Positions 4,052 to 41,199 of a DNA stretch of 45,258 nucleotides are shown here, one piece after another. Position numbers and translations under genes: made by a program. Source of the DNA: Bdellovibrionota bacterium. Lineage in GTDB: Bacteria; Bdellovibrionota; UBA1018; CAUJDS01. The first letter of the stretch is position 1; every line of letters starts with the position of its first letter. The stretch is taken from positions 1 to 45,258 of the forward strand of contig CAUJDS010000020.1 in assembly GCA_963169695.1 (NCBI GenBank). Direction: 5' to 3'. Below the pieces are notes generated by a model. It did not search any database, was not told the origin of the DNA, and saw only the letters and a list, made by a program, of their open reading frames with translations.

Positions 4052-6418
4052 ATGCGTTCGTTATTTTTGATTTTACTTTTTGCTATTGAAGCTTCGGCTC
4101 AATCTGGTCTCACTTGTCCTGTCGTAGAGAAAAGAGGTTCGGACGCTTTGCTAAGAATCAGCAGTGACCTTCAGGTTTCGATCCTCGCTACGACCAATGG
4201 GATGGATCTCAAGGCACTCGTAACCGATCGAGAGACCGGGACTCGCCAAGTCCTTGAGCGCAGTGTTGATGCAAGCAATACCATGGGGGATCTCTATGTC
4301 TTCAGAATGAAGAACGGCACTTACCAGCAGTTTCTTAAAGCGGGCTTGCTTCGATGGCCCTCGGGTGGCTATGTATGGGCCATCGCGTCCTTAGATCACC
4401 CCGATGTAGCACCATTTCTATTGGTAGACCTGACGGAAATTGATGGATCAGGGATCCAGTGTTTGCCGCCTGGAATATTGAGTGGACTGATTTTTGGAGA
4501 TTTCTCGCACGCCAGCGTTGCTATGGTTGAAACCCAAGGGAATGTCCTGCAATTTGCAGAAGCGGCGAGTCGACTCGCGCGACTCCCGCACCAGGCACGA
4601 AGCACCATGACGTCAAGCGCAGACATCAACGGGGGCAACAGTGACGGCTTTGACAATAGCCAATACCTTCGTACAACTGGCGCACCTTATGTCCTTTTGG
4701 ACGAAGAGAATTCTGGAATACTCACTCATGCATTTCTGAACCCACAGTATCCCTTTATGGTTCCCAACTACGTAAGTTCAAATTTTTCATTCTTCCTGAA
4801 TGGTGAAACCTCTCCTTCACTCTCAGCGTCCGCTTATTCTTTATTTACGATAGGGCAAGGTCCCTTTCTGCCTTCGCAGATCGGTAGTGGCGAGGGAGGA
4901 TTTTGGGCCTACCTTACGATGCCCTTTCGAGATGGACTTCGATTGGAATCAGCCTCGGCTACCTTTCATCATTTTGTGGTTCAAAAGGGCCTCGGAGACT
5001 CGGATACCGAAGGCTGGGATCGGCTCCTTCCGCTCGTCGCATCTTCAGGAGGCTCACCCCATGGCGCCATTCCTGCATTGACCACCCTTACTCAGAACAT
5101 CCTCGTACCGGCACAAGGGTCAGTTCAACTCCCTCCCATCCAAAGCGCAGGTGTCATTCTTAAACTCGCCCTTCAAGGGACGATGAATCTCAGCGAGTGG
5201 AAGTATTTGCGAATCAGAGCAACTTTTGACCAACACGCCACACCTGATATCGATCTCCCACTTTGTACTTTCTTTGGAGCCTGCTATCCGTCCTATTCGG
5301 TTCAATCCGCAATGTGGCAGTTGGCCGCTTTACCTGGCGGGGGCAGTTCTGGAACGACTTATTTCCCGATGCCATTTGATTCGGACGCTCGCATTGAGCT
5401 GGTCAATCTAACGGCGGTAGATCAGAGCTTCAGCGTGGACCTTGATTGGCTGCCGGGACAGTATCCAAAACCTTACGGCTATTTTCGAGCGGATTATCGT
5501 GAAGGTATGAGTTCGACAGGTGTAGATTTTACGACGGCCTCGCGTGCAGGGTATGGCAAGCTTGTCGCTGAAGTAATTGAGCCCTTAGTGGAGGTCTCTC
5601 AACTGAATGCCAATTTTAATATCTTTGAAGGCGATGAGCGCATCTATGTCGACGGCGAGGATCATCCGAGCCACCATGGCACCAGTCACGAAAACATCGC
5701 CAATTGGGGTTGGTATGGCATTGCGGGGTTTGATCAACCCTTCTCAAGAAGTACCCATGGATATTCAGGGCCTATTCCAAGTCAAACCAATGGAGTGAGT
5801 GAGCTTTGGAGGTCCTTCTATCGCCAGCGTCTTTTTTGGGATCCTGTCTACTACTACCAGTCCCTCGAAAGTAAACTGGAGCACGGACCCAGCAATGATC
5901 AAAACGCGTACTATCGAACAGCATTTTTCTTTTATGAGTCAGATAAAGCCGCGCCCATGGTAATCCAAGATGAGCTTGAACACGGCAGCTCAGCCAATGA
6001 ATCCCAGCATGCCCTCATCACTGGCACGAATACTTCTTTTCAAAATGTGCAAAGCACTTTTACGGGAGACTCCACTCAAGTTGCTACCAGCAAACGATTT
6101 TTGGTAACTCAAGATCCATTTCGGTTTCGGCTAAACACTGCCAACAATAATTTTGGAGGGATGCTCCGATTTACCTTAGAACGATTTGGGAATGGCTCAG
6201 CCCGAGCCAAAATATTAGTTAATGGACACGAAGTTGGAACTATTCATCAACCGTGGGATCAAAGGTCGGATCCGCAAGCCATTCGATTCTACCAAACCTC
6301 AATTGAGCTGCCCTATTCCGTCACTCACAATCAAACAAGCCTTGGAATAGAAGTGATTCCTCTGGGACCTTCGCCTTGGAGACAAGCGCAGGTAAAGCTC
6401 TATAGTTACTTCCATTAG
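4052..6418 (+). CDS. Secreted DUF2961/GH172-like protein, 788 residues
   Basis: Residues 1-17 form a Sec signal peptide ending EASAQS. A beta-rich region to about residue 190 has no family I recognise. Residues about 190-630 carry the order of DUF2961: DGFDNSQYLRTTG, SGILTHAFLNP, a Gly-rich segment, TYFPMPFDSDARIEL, YGYFRADYR, then FEGDERIYVDGEDHPSHHGT with SHENIANWGWYG, and an LFWDPVYY-EHG-YYRTAFFFYE end. DUF2961 defines glycoside hydrolase family GH172, which includes difructose-anhydride and D-arabinan-active enzymes. As I recall, the two catalytic glutamates of the founding GH172 enzyme are 21 residues apart; here E526 (in FEGDE) and E547 (in TSHEN) have that spacing. Residues 630-788 look like a C-terminal jelly-roll. 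The protein is longer than typical members because of the N-terminal region. An exported glycosidase is inferred; the substrate is unknown. Its TAG stop interlocks with the stop of the convergent RDD gene. Confidence 0.8.
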   Translation: MRSLFLILLFAIEASAQSGLTCPVVEKRGSDALLRISSDLQVSILATTNGMDLKALVTDRETGTRQVLERSVDASNTMGDLYVFRMKNGTYQQFLKAGLLRWPSGGYVWAIASLDHPDVAPFLLVDLTEIDGSGIQCLPPGILSGLIFGDFSHASVAMVETQGNVLQFAEAASRLARLPHQARSTMTSSADINGGNSDGFDNSQYLRTTGAPYVLLDEENSGILTHAFLNPQYPFMVPNYVSSNFSFFLNGETSPSLSASAYSLFTIGQGPFLPSQIGSGEGGFWAYLTMPFRDGLRLESASATFHHFVVQKGLGDSDTEGWDRLLPLVASSGGSPHGAIPALTTLTQNILVPAQGSVQLPPIQSAGVILKLALQGTMNLSEWKYLRIRATFDQHATPDIDLPLCTFFGACYPSYSVQSAMWQLAALPGGGSSGTTYFPMPFDSDARIELVNLTAVDQSFSVDLDWLPGQYPKPYGYFRADYREGMSSTGVDFTTASRAGYGKLVAEVIEPLVEVSQLNANFNIFEGDERIYVDGEDHPSHHGTSHENIANWGWYGIAGFDQPFSRSTHGYSGPIPSQTNGVSELWRSFYRQRLFWDPVYYYQSLESKLEHGPSNDQNAYYRTAFFFYESDKAAPMVIQDELEHGSSANESQHALITGTNTSFQNVQSTFTGDSTQVATSKRFLVTQDPFRFRLNTANNNFGGMLRFTLERFGNGSARAKILVNGHEVGTIHQPWDQRSDPQAIRFYQTSIELPYSVTHNQTSLGIEVIPLGPSPWRQAQVKLYSYFH

Positions 6419-10086: not shown

Positions 10087-10124
10087 ATAAAGGACCCTGT
10101 GGCCAAAACCATAGGGTCCTTTAT
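10087..10124. terminator. Bidirectional hairpin terminator between fabI and EF-hand gene
   Basis: Sixteen-base arms at 10087-10102 and 10109-10124 pair with a single G-U wobble around the 6-base loop CCAAAA. The core is AAAGGACCCT/AGGGTCCTTT and both ends are A/T-rich, so U-rich tails exist in both directions. It lies between the convergent fabI and EF-hand genes; the stop codon of the latter is inside the right arm. Confidence 0.85.
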
Positions 10125-11275
10125 TGTTTCTGGACTCGAAGTCTGAGCATAATTTCATTTCGGACTGGTTCTGGCAGAATCGCCCAATTACCAACGGCCT
10201 TGCTCAATTCACCGACAGATACTTCCCCATCCGAATTGAGGTCGGCTTCTGAAAAGCCCAGCCAGACTCTCTCAGCTCCCTTCATCGTAAAAAGAGAATC
10301 CCTTAGAAATTCTATGAATTCCGATTGAGCGACCCATCCATCTTTGGATTGGTCCATTGCGGCTAACAATTTTCTTCCAAGAACTTGAAGGTCCCAAAGT
10401 TTTAAAGTGGTCATTTCGGTATCAGGATCCATTCCTAGATGCTTTTGGATGAGCCATGCATACTCATTAACCAGACGTTTACCTTCCGCGGGAGTTGTAC
10501 CGCGCGCAAAACCAAGTAGTTCAGAAAAACAAGTTTTCTGATTCCCGTCTCGATCAACCTGATTAAAAAGATTTTTCAAAGACTGCTCCATGATTGGCCA
10601 CTCCCTGCCAATAAGGAGCTGGTGTATGTCCGACAATGAAACATGGAAGCTCGCCAGTGATCTTTCACGCTGAGAACCTTCAGCTTGCTGCTCTACCGCC
10701 GTGGAATTTTTCAGCAAACGAATCCTTTCGAGTTCTGCGGCTGAAAACTGCTCAATGCTTTTAAAAACCCTTTCTCGAACTTCCAACGGAATCTCGTAAT
10801 TATAAAAAAGAGCGTAGAGACGAAGTCCGGTAGGGCCTAGGTTGTAAACAGAAGGTTCGGGAAGTTCAAGGTAGCCACTCAACCCGTTCAGAACCGCTGC
10901 GGTCTGCTGAGCAGTCATCCCTCTTACCGCCATAGCCATTACTTCGGTAACAAGACGGAAACGCGTAGTAGCGTGATGGTGAGGCGAAAGCATTTCAGTA
11001 AGAAAAAAATCGAGGTTCATGGGAGCGAGATCCGCAATTTCTTTCTCTACAGGAGCGTATTCGAGATTGACTCGAAAGAGTTCCTTGACGAGGTCTTTGG
11101 ACTTCGCGTAGTCCCCCTGGGACCTAGCTTTAGCAAGCTCTGATTTTATGACTTCAACATCACGGCTCACTCGATCCGAACGTTCGAGGACTTCCTGGGG
11201 ATCTTGAGCCCTCACTGTCGAACCCAGTAGACCAAAAAACAATAGAAGTACAGTAACGTATTTTATGCAACCCAT
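10121..11275 (-). CDS. Exported EF-hand calcium-binding protein
   Basis: A 384-residue protein from ATG 11275 with a signal peptide (VLLLFFGLLGSTVRAQ). A longer frame begins at TTG 11323, but the ATG is preceded by AAAGGAG/GGGGGA and places the signal at the N-terminus. Residues 25-75 are helical and charged; a long helical region follows to about residue 230. Three EF-hand loops are visible: DRDGNQKTCFSE (241-252), DQSKDGWVAQSE (308-319) and DLNSDGEVSVGE (345-356). The second and third have canonical D-x-D/S/N-x-D-G spacing and a final Glu; the first has Gly at position 4 rather than 6 and may bind calcium weakly. The function is probably calcium-dependent binding or structure in the periplasm; no enzyme domain is seen. 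Transcription ends in the hairpin shared with fabI. Confidence 0.8.
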   Translation of the reverse strand: MGCIKYVTVLLLFFGLLGSTVRAQDPQEVLERSDRVSRDVEVIKSELAKARSQGDYAKSKDLVKELFRVNLEYAPVEKEIADLAPMNLDFFLTEMLSPHHHATTRFRLVTEVMAMAVRGMTAQQTAAVLNGLSGYLELPEPSVYNLGPTGLRLYALFYNYEIPLEVRERVFKSIEQFSAAELERIRLLKNSTAVEQQAEGSQRERSLASFHVSLSDIHQLLIGREWPIMEQSLKNLFNQVDRDGNQKTCFSELLGFARGTTPAEGKRLVNEYAWLIQKHLGMDPDTEMTTLKLWDLQVLGRKLLAAMDQSKDGWVAQSEFIEFLRDSLFTMKGAERVWLGFSEADLNSDGEVSVGELSKAVGNWAILPEPVRNEIMLRLRVQKQ

Positions 11276-11352
11276 CAGATCCCCCACTCCTTTTGAAGTA
11301 TCAAACGGATTCTTGACCGTCAAACCGGGCCCTCCGTGATAGAAACAGAGTC

Positions 11353-20145: not shown

Positions 20146-21015
20146 TTACCAAGTTTGCGGCGTATATCGCTCGGCAATGATCCGCGGCTCACCCTTTTCT
20201 TCAGCCACAACTAATACCTTTGTTCCACGAGATTTAAATCCTGGGGCGCCACCTCGGAGTATGGACTCATAATTTTGAGTAAACTGGATAATCGCGTATT
20301 TGGGATGCCGATAGAAGTGAACATTTTCGGGCTGAACCTTAATAGACTGATACTTCTTATTGAGATTGCCTTTATAGTCACGCCATTGATCCTTGTTTTT
20401 TCCATCTGCGTGAAAATCCGTATGATACCCGCCAATGTATACATCTAGGTTTCGATCTTCCCAGCCCTTGATCCAGTTCTTAAAAAATTGAACGGTAGCT
20501 CCGTCCGACTCGGGCTTAAGAAAAGTATCCGTCAATTCAGCAAAAACCAAAATCGGAGTCAGTCCCAAGTGAATATAAGGCTTAATCTTAGCGATTTCTT
20601 CGTTGCGAACGACAATGCATCCTTGGCTATCGTAATTCTTTTTCAAACGATCTGGTTCGTTGGTGGCGTGCAACATGATGTCAAATCCTGTTCGACCAGC
20701 CAGCGTGTCAAACTCGTTTGGGTAATTCATATGAAACGCCATCGCCCCGAACTTCGGCTTTAAATGAGGCGGCGTCAGGAAATTATTAAAGAAATAAACC
20801 CCCTCAGGAGTTTTGAGGTCACCTTCTTCTTCCTTATCGCCAATAACGGAACCCATCGTGACGTGGTAGGTTTCGAGAATTTTATATTCTGGGACAGCAT
20901 ATTCAGCCACTCGAAGGGTATTGGTCTTTTTATCGACTAAAATTGCCGTAGGCGTACTCGCCCAAGCCAAACTCTGAAAGAGGACCAGGCCCAATGCCAA
21001 TCGAAGGCTATTCAA
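20146..21015 (-). CDS. L,D-transpeptidase-fold (YkuD) protein, YafK/DpaA/Csd6-like
   Basis: An exported YkuD-domain protein. The catalytic region is IMLHATNEP through SQGCIVVRN, with His and Cys (H116, C133 counted from TTG 21015) in the H-x(16)-C arrangement of L,D-transpeptidases. After the catalytic domain a roughly 130-residue segment (FFKNWIKGWEDRNLDVYI, YKGNLNKKYQ, KVLVVAEEKGEPRIIAERY) fits an NTF2-like domain, as in E. coli YafK/DpaA and Helicobacter Csd6, which cleave or trim peptidoglycan rather than crosslink it. The frame extends to TTG 21075, inside the GT2 gene, but TTG 21015 gives a conventional signal peptide ending SLAWAS; neither has a strong ribosome binding site. It lies between a GT2 gene and the FAD oxidoreductase in an apparent ssb-led operon. 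Confidence 0.85.
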   Translation of the reverse strand: MNSLRLALGLVLFQSLAWASTPTAILVDKKTNTLRVAEYAVPEYKILETYHVTMGSVIGDKEEEGDLKTPEGVYFFNNFLTPPHLKPKFGAMAFHMNYPNEFDTLAGRTGFDIMLHATNEPDRLKKNYDSQGCIVVRNEEIAKIKPYIHLGLTPILVFAELTDTFLKPESDGATVQFFKNWIKGWEDRNLDVYIGGYHTDFHADGKNKDQWRDYKGNLNKKYQSIKVQPENVHFYRHPKYAIIQFTQNYESILRGGAPGFKSRGTKVLVVAEEKGEPRIIAERYTPQTW

Positions 21016-21025
21016 AAAAAAATGC

Positions 21026-21727
21026 TTAGGATCCAAATCGGAAACTCCAAACCTTACGCAATGCTTCGAAAACAATTCCCTGACTCATTTTAGATTTTCC
21101 AACTTTTCGATCCTCAAAAATAATGGGAAATTCAAAATATCGAAACCCTTTTTTAAAAGCTCGGTATTTCAGTTCAATCTGAAAAGAATAGCCATCCGAA
21201 CGAAGGGACTTCAAGTCAATGGCCTCTAGCACTTCTCTGCGCCAACTATTAAATCCACCCGTAAAATCACGAAGGGGCGCTCCCAAAATCAGTCGAGAGT
21301 AGAAGCTCCCACCTCGGCTGATGATTTTTCGCATCAGTCCCCAATTCACAGTTCCACCACCGCGCACATAGCGTGATCCAATGACGAAATCAAAATTCCT
21401 GAGGTGCTCCAAGTGTTGGACGAGATAGGAAGGTCGATGTGAAAAATCAGCGTCCATTTCGATACAAGCATCGTAATCGCGTTGCAGGGCCCATTCGAAT
21501 CCGCAAACATAAGCGGTTCCTAATCCCATCTTTCCCGCTCGATGAAGACAATGGAGACGCGGCTGAGATCGAATCATCTCATCTACTAATTTACCGGTTC
21601 CATCGGGTGAGCCATCATCGACTATAAGAAGGTCCACTGTAGGGGGCGTGCTAGCGAGCACCTGCTCTACAAAGGATTCAATATTCTCAGCTTCGTTATA
21701 GGTGGGAGTAATAATGAGACTCTTCAT
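21026..21727 (-). CDS. Polyprenol-phosphate mannose/glucose synthase-like GT2 glycosyltransferase
   Basis: A 233-residue soluble GT-A fold enzyme close to Dpm1/polyprenol monophosphomannose synthases. Motifs: IITPTYNEAENIE at the N-terminus, LLIVDDGSPDGTG, the metal-binding D-A-D at 92-94 (EMDADFSH), GSRYVRGG and DFTGGFNSWRREVL, all characteristic of this subfamily. There is no C-terminal membrane domain, so it resembles the catalytic-only type that transfers a sugar from a nucleotide donor to a lipid phosphate at the inner face of the membrane. The ATG at 21727 has an AGGAAT site and lies 6 bases after the ssb stop. A GT87-type membrane protein at 40039 could use a polyprenol-linked sugar, but the two genes are far apart and that link is speculative. 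Confidence 0.93.
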   Translation of the reverse strand: MKSLIITPTYNEAENIESFVEQVLASTPPTVDLLIVDDGSPDGTGKLVDEMIRSQPRLHCLHRAGKMGLGTAYVCGFEWALQRDYDACIEMDADFSHRPSYLVQHLEHLRNFDFVIGSRYVRGGGTVNWGLMRKIISRGGSFYSRLILGAPLRDFTGGFNSWRREVLEAIDLKSLRSDGYSFQIELKYRAFKKGFRYFEFPIIFEDRKVGKSKMSQGIVFEALRKVWSFRFGS

Positions 21728-40038: not shown

Positions 40039-41199
40039 GTGATGGTGCGAGTGTTGGCCTTTGGGATCCTGAGTCTGGTTGCGGTCTCGCTTTTTTTTCG
40101 GGACTACTCGCCGCATTTTAGCGTGGAAAACCTTCCCCACGATTACCACGTCCTATGGAAGGTCAAGACCCGAGTTGCCCAAGGAGTCGATCCTTACTTC
40201 GCCTCGTGGAATGAATCCAAATACAATTACAGCCCAGGGTTGATTCCTTTTCTTCAAATTTTGCCGAACAATCCTCAAGTCGCCTTTTACCTTGTGAGAG
40301 GCCTAGCCATCTTGCTTTGGGTGCTAGGCATTTTTTTCGGTGTGGTCTGGCGCTCAAAGAGGGATCTGCTCTGTCTCTGCGGCGGCCTCATCCTTGCGTG
40401 GCAGGGAGCCGGAGTCACGCTTGCCATGGGACAGGCTGAACTCCTCGGACTCGGACTTATGCTGCTGGCCTTTCGACTCTTCGACACCAAACCCATGGCC
40501 ACCGCTTGGATCCTCGCTTTTCTTCCAATCGTCAAACTGCCCTGGCTTTTTCTCTGGATACCTTTTGGCTATCGGCTTTGGGTGACTCAACCCCGATGGG
40601 CTTTGTCGTTTCGGATTCATTTGATCCTAGCCTCTTTTCTAGGCTGGCTTGCCATACCGCTATTAACCGCCGGAACTGAGCTTACGCTCCAGTGGTACCT
40701 GTCCTGGCTTGAAGTGCTCAAACATCAAAATCCCGAACTCTTCACCTTGCCCGCCAATCAGTCCATCTGGTCTCGGCTAGCACCCTTGAAGTCCATCGTC
40801 CCAGGAGGAACGCTTCTCATCCCCTTGGCCTGTCTTGGAATTTTGGGCTTTCTGGCATTGCAGGGCCTCCGTCAGATCAAATCTGCTCGACATTTTTCTT
40901 CTAAGGCACTTGCCCTAACCACACCTTGGGTGCTCCTTATGCAACTAGCTAACCCGCTAGCCTGGTATTGGGCAGGGGCATACTTGCCCGGCGCTTTTTT
41001 TTCCATTTTTGAAAACGACCTTGGCAAGCGCTCCAAAAAAATTTTTGCAGCGATGCTGGTAGTCCTAGCGCTCACCTTTCTCTTTCAGCAAAAGTGGGTG
41101 AATGGTTGGGTGTTAGGAATCCCGGATCGAAGTGCCGCACACGCGTATGGAGTCATGACAGTGCATTGGCTTTCGATCCTAGGGCTGAGCTTGCTTTAG
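40039..41199 (+). CDS. GT87-like (DUF2029) polyprenol-dependent glycosyltransferase
   Basis: A 386-residue multi-pass membrane protein with 9-11 predicted helices. The first extracytoplasmic loop has LPHDYHVLWKVKTRVAQGVDPYFA, matching the acidic D-Y and G-x-D-P-Y motifs of GT-C glycosyltransferases of family GT87/DUF2029 (mannosyl- and arabinosyltransferase-like). FLPIVKLPWLFLWIPFGYR is the usual middle K-P segment. GT-C enzymes use lipid-phosphate sugars on the outer face of the membrane. GTG 40039 follows GAGGT by 8 bases; ATG 40042 is three bases later. It is alone on the plus strand, divergent from the Lol permease, and its TAG stop interlocks with the lysS stop. Confidence 0.8.
   Translation: MMVRVLAFGILSLVAVSLFFRDYSPHFSVENLPHDYHVLWKVKTRVAQGVDPYFASWNESKYNYSPGLIPFLQILPNNPQVAFYLVRGLAILLWVLGIFFGVVWRSKRDLLCLCGGLILAWQGAGVTLAMGQAELLGLGLMLLAFRLFDTKPMATAWILAFLPIVKLPWLFLWIPFGYRLWVTQPRWALSFRIHLILASFLGWLAIPLLTAGTELTLQWYLSWLEVLKHQNPELFTLPANQSIWSRLAPLKSIVPGGTLLIPLACLGILGFLALQGLRQIKSARHFSSKALALTTPWVLLMQLANPLAWYWAGAYLPGAFFSIFENDLGKRSKKIFAAMLVVLALTFLFQQKWVNGWVLGIPDRSAAHAYGVMTVHWLSILGLSLL

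Follow-up and report, generated by a model that had tools for sequence, protein, structure and literature searches.

An open reading frame of the window (the whole stretch of 45,258 nucleotides that was analysed) encodes a 788-residue protein that is a sound member of the known GH172 fold, with a pocket altered in an unusual manner that runs through its clade. On balance, it would be an exported, retaining furanosidase that acts as a dimer, has a remodelled -1 subsite and probably cuts a sugar other than that of the characterised members. Few GH172 members have been characterised, and a branch that lacks an Asp of this subsite and keeps the catalytic Glu pair offers a direct test of wider specificity in the family. 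The features of the gene are collected in Table 1.

Table 1. Positions in the window of the GH172-like gene and its features
Feature	Position	Strand	Basis
Open reading frame, predicted secreted GH172-like protein, 788 aa	4052..6418	+	open frame throughout, Pfam match
Putative signal peptide MRSLFLILLFAIEASA, residues 1-16, cleavage after ASA (before QS)	4052..4099	+	translation read by eye
N-terminal domain, residues 17-165	4100..4546	+	all-beta by low-confidence prediction
Jelly-roll A, residues 168-342, carries GGNSD calcium-site motif	4553..5077	+	hhalign, model strands
N196-S-D198, equivalents of calcium ligands N31'/D33' of alphaFFase1	4637..4645	+	alignment
Jelly-roll B, residues 343-474	5078..5473	+	hhalign; first half of Pfam DUF2961
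Jelly-roll C, residues 475-640, catalytic	5474..5971	+	Pfam, model, hhalign
E526, equivalent of acid/base E270 of alphaFFase1	5627..5629	+	alignment
E547, equivalent of nucleophile E291 of alphaFFase1	5690..5692	+	alignment
N548, site of D292 in alphaFFase1	5693..5695	+	alignment, 101 family members
C-terminal beta-domain, residues 641-788	5972..6415	+	alignment with long relatives, model; weak BPA_C resemblance

The protein was matched by Pfam DUF2961 (PF11175) over residues 383-628 (E 7.6e-38, 130.8 bits against a curated cut-off of 27). A phmmer search of the PDB returned 8ah3 (8e-16), 4kq7 (1.7e-14), 8ic8 (5.7e-8) and 7v1v (1.2e-7), which are all the GH172-family structures found there (n = 4). 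The DUF2961/GH172 kinship claimed by an earlier, sequence-only reading is borne out by these matches; the hidden-Markov search was one of the checks it had named, and one of the outcomes that would have counted against it, no DUF2961 match, is excluded. The AlphaFold model had a mean pLDDT of 76 overall, with residues 165-788 mostly confident and many blocks above 90, and Foldseek placed the four GH172-family proteins of solved structure at the top of its matches (E 2e-16 to 6e-15). The catalytic jelly-roll pair of GH172 corresponds to jelly-rolls B and C (model strands, Foldseek), the catalytic Glu pair to E526 and E547, and the calcium-site N-x-D on the neighbouring jelly-roll to N196-S-D198. 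The -1 subsite Asp after the nucleophile, a common feature though not a formal criterion of GH172, is absent and N548 stands in its place.

Foldseek also matched the capsid proteins of PRD1, PM2, STIV and FLiP, for which common ancestry has been argued in a PNAS paper. That the protein is a structural, capsid-like double-jelly-roll protein and no enzyme is nevertheless highly improbable: the capsid matches were far weaker than the GH172 matches, the protein retains a signal peptide, the Glu pair and the calcium motif, no viral genes were recognised in the window and no relative was confirmed in viral contigs.

Residues 168-640 consist of three mutually homologous jelly-rolls, an arrangement of '1.5 DUF2961'. 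The modules were aligned to each other utilizing hhalign (A-B 99.5 %, E 1.8e-22; A-C 96.7 %; B-C 95 %) and have a like strand-helix pattern in the AlphaFold model, with for example helices 261-265, 404-407 and 545-550 after equivalent strands. Three jelly-rolls per chain are the mark of DgGH172b (HMPREF9455_02471, Dysgonomonas gadei), reported by Al-Jourani et al. as dimeric with '1.5 DUF2961 domains' (PMC10115798). The likeness is drawn from this published description, in which DgGH172b is a dimer in solution with weak activity on pNP-alpha-D-Araf; it differs in coming from a D-arabinan utilisation locus. ExoMA1 (8ic8), DgGH172c (8ah3) and BACUNI_00161 (4kq7) share the core fold and Glu pair, but are double jelly-rolls with canonical GTGTED and without the extra N- and C-terminal domains. 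The founder of GH172, alphaFFase1 (BBDE_2040, Bifidobacterium dentium, PDB 7v1v), shares the fold, the 21-residue Glu spacing and the calcium motif, whereas it has a double rather than triple jelly-roll and no Sec signal.

Long relatives from Planctomycetota, Chloroflexota, Bacillota, Actinomycetota and Bacteroidota (L017, L008, L011 and L013 among them) are colinear with residues ~168-786, and the 641-788 beta-domain is common to long GH172-like proteins of many phyla (alignment). Its resemblance to BPA_C lies below the cut-off (E 0.0042). The truly extra part of the protein is residues 17-165 alone. Pfam returned nothing for this part at E values up to 10, a search of 57 further genomes from the order and class gave no convincing relative, and its single-sequence fold model had a pLDDT of 42. 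A fourth, decayed jelly-roll was considered for it and is unsupported, as it was unrelated to jelly-rolls A, B and C by hhalign. The sequence-only reading had described an unassigned N-terminal part of 170 residues, which is real but about 150 residues long, and a C-terminal jelly-roll, which is a real all-beta domain but standard in long GH172-like proteins, the core itself having three jelly-rolls. Its attribution of the extra length to the N-terminal domain holds in part, because the catalytic core, at 1.5 DUF2961, is also longer.

In alphaFFase1, E270 is the acid/base and E291 the nucleophile; the sugar is contacted by W267, E270, E291, D292, W298 and Y187' of the neighbour, and a calcium beside the sugar is coordinated by N31', D33' and N272 (PMC8605356). 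By alignment, the pocket positions are occupied by N523 (for W267), E526, E547, N548 (for D292), W554 and F305 and the calcium positions by N196, D198 and D528; F305 is the least secure of the pocket equivalences, being assigned by way of several alignments. The catalytic glutamates named by the sequence-only reading are confirmed, as E526 and E547 align with E270 and E291, lie 21 residues apart in both proteins and are invariant in the alignments (101/101 unique family proteins). The residue after the nucleophile was Asp in 95 of the 101, Glu in 4, Thr in 1 and Asn in 1, which is the present protein; this first sample, uneven in its coverage of other phyla, was drawn by a peptide pattern permitting either Asp or Asn, so proteins with Asn could also be retrieved. 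The surrounding motif is changed from GTGTEDYF to GTSHENIA.

Mutants of alphaFFase1 indicate the weight of these changes (PMC8605356). Y187F kept 90 % of activity on pNP-alpha-D-Araf and 31 % on inulobiose, so F305 would be a mild change. D292N retained 1.4 % on pNP-alpha-D-Araf and 0.1 % on inulobiose; N548 is therefore the notable change of the pocket, and the enzyme could be very weak or inactive on its account. An ordinary GH172 exo-alpha-D-arabinofuranosidase (or fructofuranosidase) that tolerates the Asn and trims D-Araf from bacterial surface glycans (pili, lipopolysaccharide, arabinogalactan) is considered unlikely. In its favour, the protein has the Glu pair and the calcium motif, and alpha-D-Araf or alpha-D-Fruf is the substrate of the characterised members (PMC8605356, PMC10115798, PMC10509167), but N548 equals an inactivating mutation of the founder, and no D-arabinan partners were found in the neighbourhood or genome (DUF4185 being searched without a positive control). 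A GH116 partner was not found in the genome either.

A scan of genome contigs with the single protein found no relative, and an alignment-based query returned 80 loci. The best relative found was L140 of the Planctomycetota MAG G645 (E 4.6e-91, 32-34 % identity over residues 168-786, about 620 residues). Its motif is HGTSHETISNWGWY, and the two proteins have GTSHE[N/T]I[A/S]NWGWY in common. L140 is apparently exported too (lipobox by eye), but is without the ~150-residue N-terminal domain, and its neighbourhood gave no substrate clue. A lone decay or sequencing error at N548 was rejected, as the whole motif is shared by L140. G645 (L140-L142, L145-L150) is a 3.4 Mb MAG, differing from the present genome in its six matches to the long GH172-like type. 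At least two of these proteins have lipobox-like signal peptides (by eye), and their active-site motifs differ (SHET, GGED, GTET, GTEV, GTEE).

Tree building with 32 proteins placed the 788-residue protein and L140 as sisters (99/96), inside a nine-member group that separates from all others with 98/99 support. The Asp site of these nine is N, T, T, T, T, V, V, E and D, leaving eight without Asp, while both Glu are kept in all nine. The branch of the 788-residue protein is among the longest in the trees, and since branches are long its exact placement is uncertain. The long branch, together with the near inactivity of D292N, would also suit a catalytically dead glycan binder, a secreted or surface lectin in which the fold and Glu pair stay and N548 and the lost GTGTED abolish turnover. 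Such a protein is rated unlikely, since no member of the diverged clade has lost either Glu, even those that lack the Asp, and decay is not expected to preserve the pair. A working enzyme with a changed pocket is therefore favoured over decay. The plain 'exported glycosidase' of the sequence-only reading stands as to kinship, Glu pair and export but needs a caveat that it overlooked, because N548 replaces the essential -1 Asp and the site is also altered in the nearest relatives.

Two lineages outside the group of nine vary at the Asp site as well. One is a Bacteroidota-containing group with E; in the other, L123 and L124 (Planctomycetota), the Asp is replaced by T (SDGHETWWGWAWY), and its loss in GH172-like proteins may thus have happened repeatedly. 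DUF2961 is rare in the same phylum, with 4 of 369 genomes having it, and the three besides the present one belong to a different branch. Their proteins (L005:121-2985, -; L006:823-3444, +; L007:76-3231, -) have extra C-terminal sequence after a three-jelly-roll core and a canonical GTGTEDYY motif. The tail of L006, the one protein scanned, is GH43-like (PF04616, E 1.5e-7, just under the cut-off). Orthology of these three to the 788-residue protein was rejected on the separate clade and this GH43-like tail. Plasmid records held distant relatives alone, annotated GH172 or unannotated.

As a furanosidase, the protein would leave the cell by Sec export. Two A-B-C chains would pair into a six-jelly-roll ring, as in ordinary GH172 trimers of double jelly-rolls. 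Jelly-roll C would supply the acid/base E526 and the nucleophile E547; N196 and D198, which would bind calcium, and F305, which would close the pocket, would come from jelly-roll A in the other chain of the pair. A terminal furanoside would be cleaved with retention of configuration. The -1 subsite appears remodelled, and the sugar is for this reason probably not alpha-D-arabinofuranose or alpha-D-fructofuranose. The residual activity of D292N, the lack of adjoining sugar genes and the DUF4185 and GH116 searches count against this furanosidase. More tentatively, the protein and its Planctomycetota relatives (the G645 paralogs, L122 and L093/L095) might form a Glu-keeping GH172 branch in which the Asp was lost because another furanoside is hydrolysed; in the host, possibly a predatory Bdellovibrionota, an enzyme with its own N-terminal domain might then act on prey surface glycans.

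The ATG of the gene is preceded by GGGGGGA ~8 nt 5'. The flanking genes are divergent and convergent, with an SRPBCC-like gene on the upstream side, and on the other an RDD gene that overlaps the GH172-like stop with its 3' end; a Pfam scan of the neighbours found no carbohydrate or sugar-metabolism gene adjoining. The sequence-only reading had noted no sugar-uptake genes nearby, which agrees with the window genes scanned against Pfam/NCBIfam (all but a few ORFs), and its exported protein is supported by the putative signal peptide, seen by eye. Elsewhere in the window, proteins of 386 residues (40039-41199, +) and 283 residues (2111-2962, +) had no Pfam match, and one of 400 residues (10121-11323, -) had EF-hand-like matches, with one model (EF-hand_6) just over its cut-off. 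A YkuD/NTF2 protein (20146-21075, -) hints at a Bdellovibrionota host: its match to Bdellovibrio Bd1075 (PDB 7o21, E 2.7e-39), a peptidoglycan-editing shape determinant, was much stronger than those to the structures of the related Pgp2 and Csd6.
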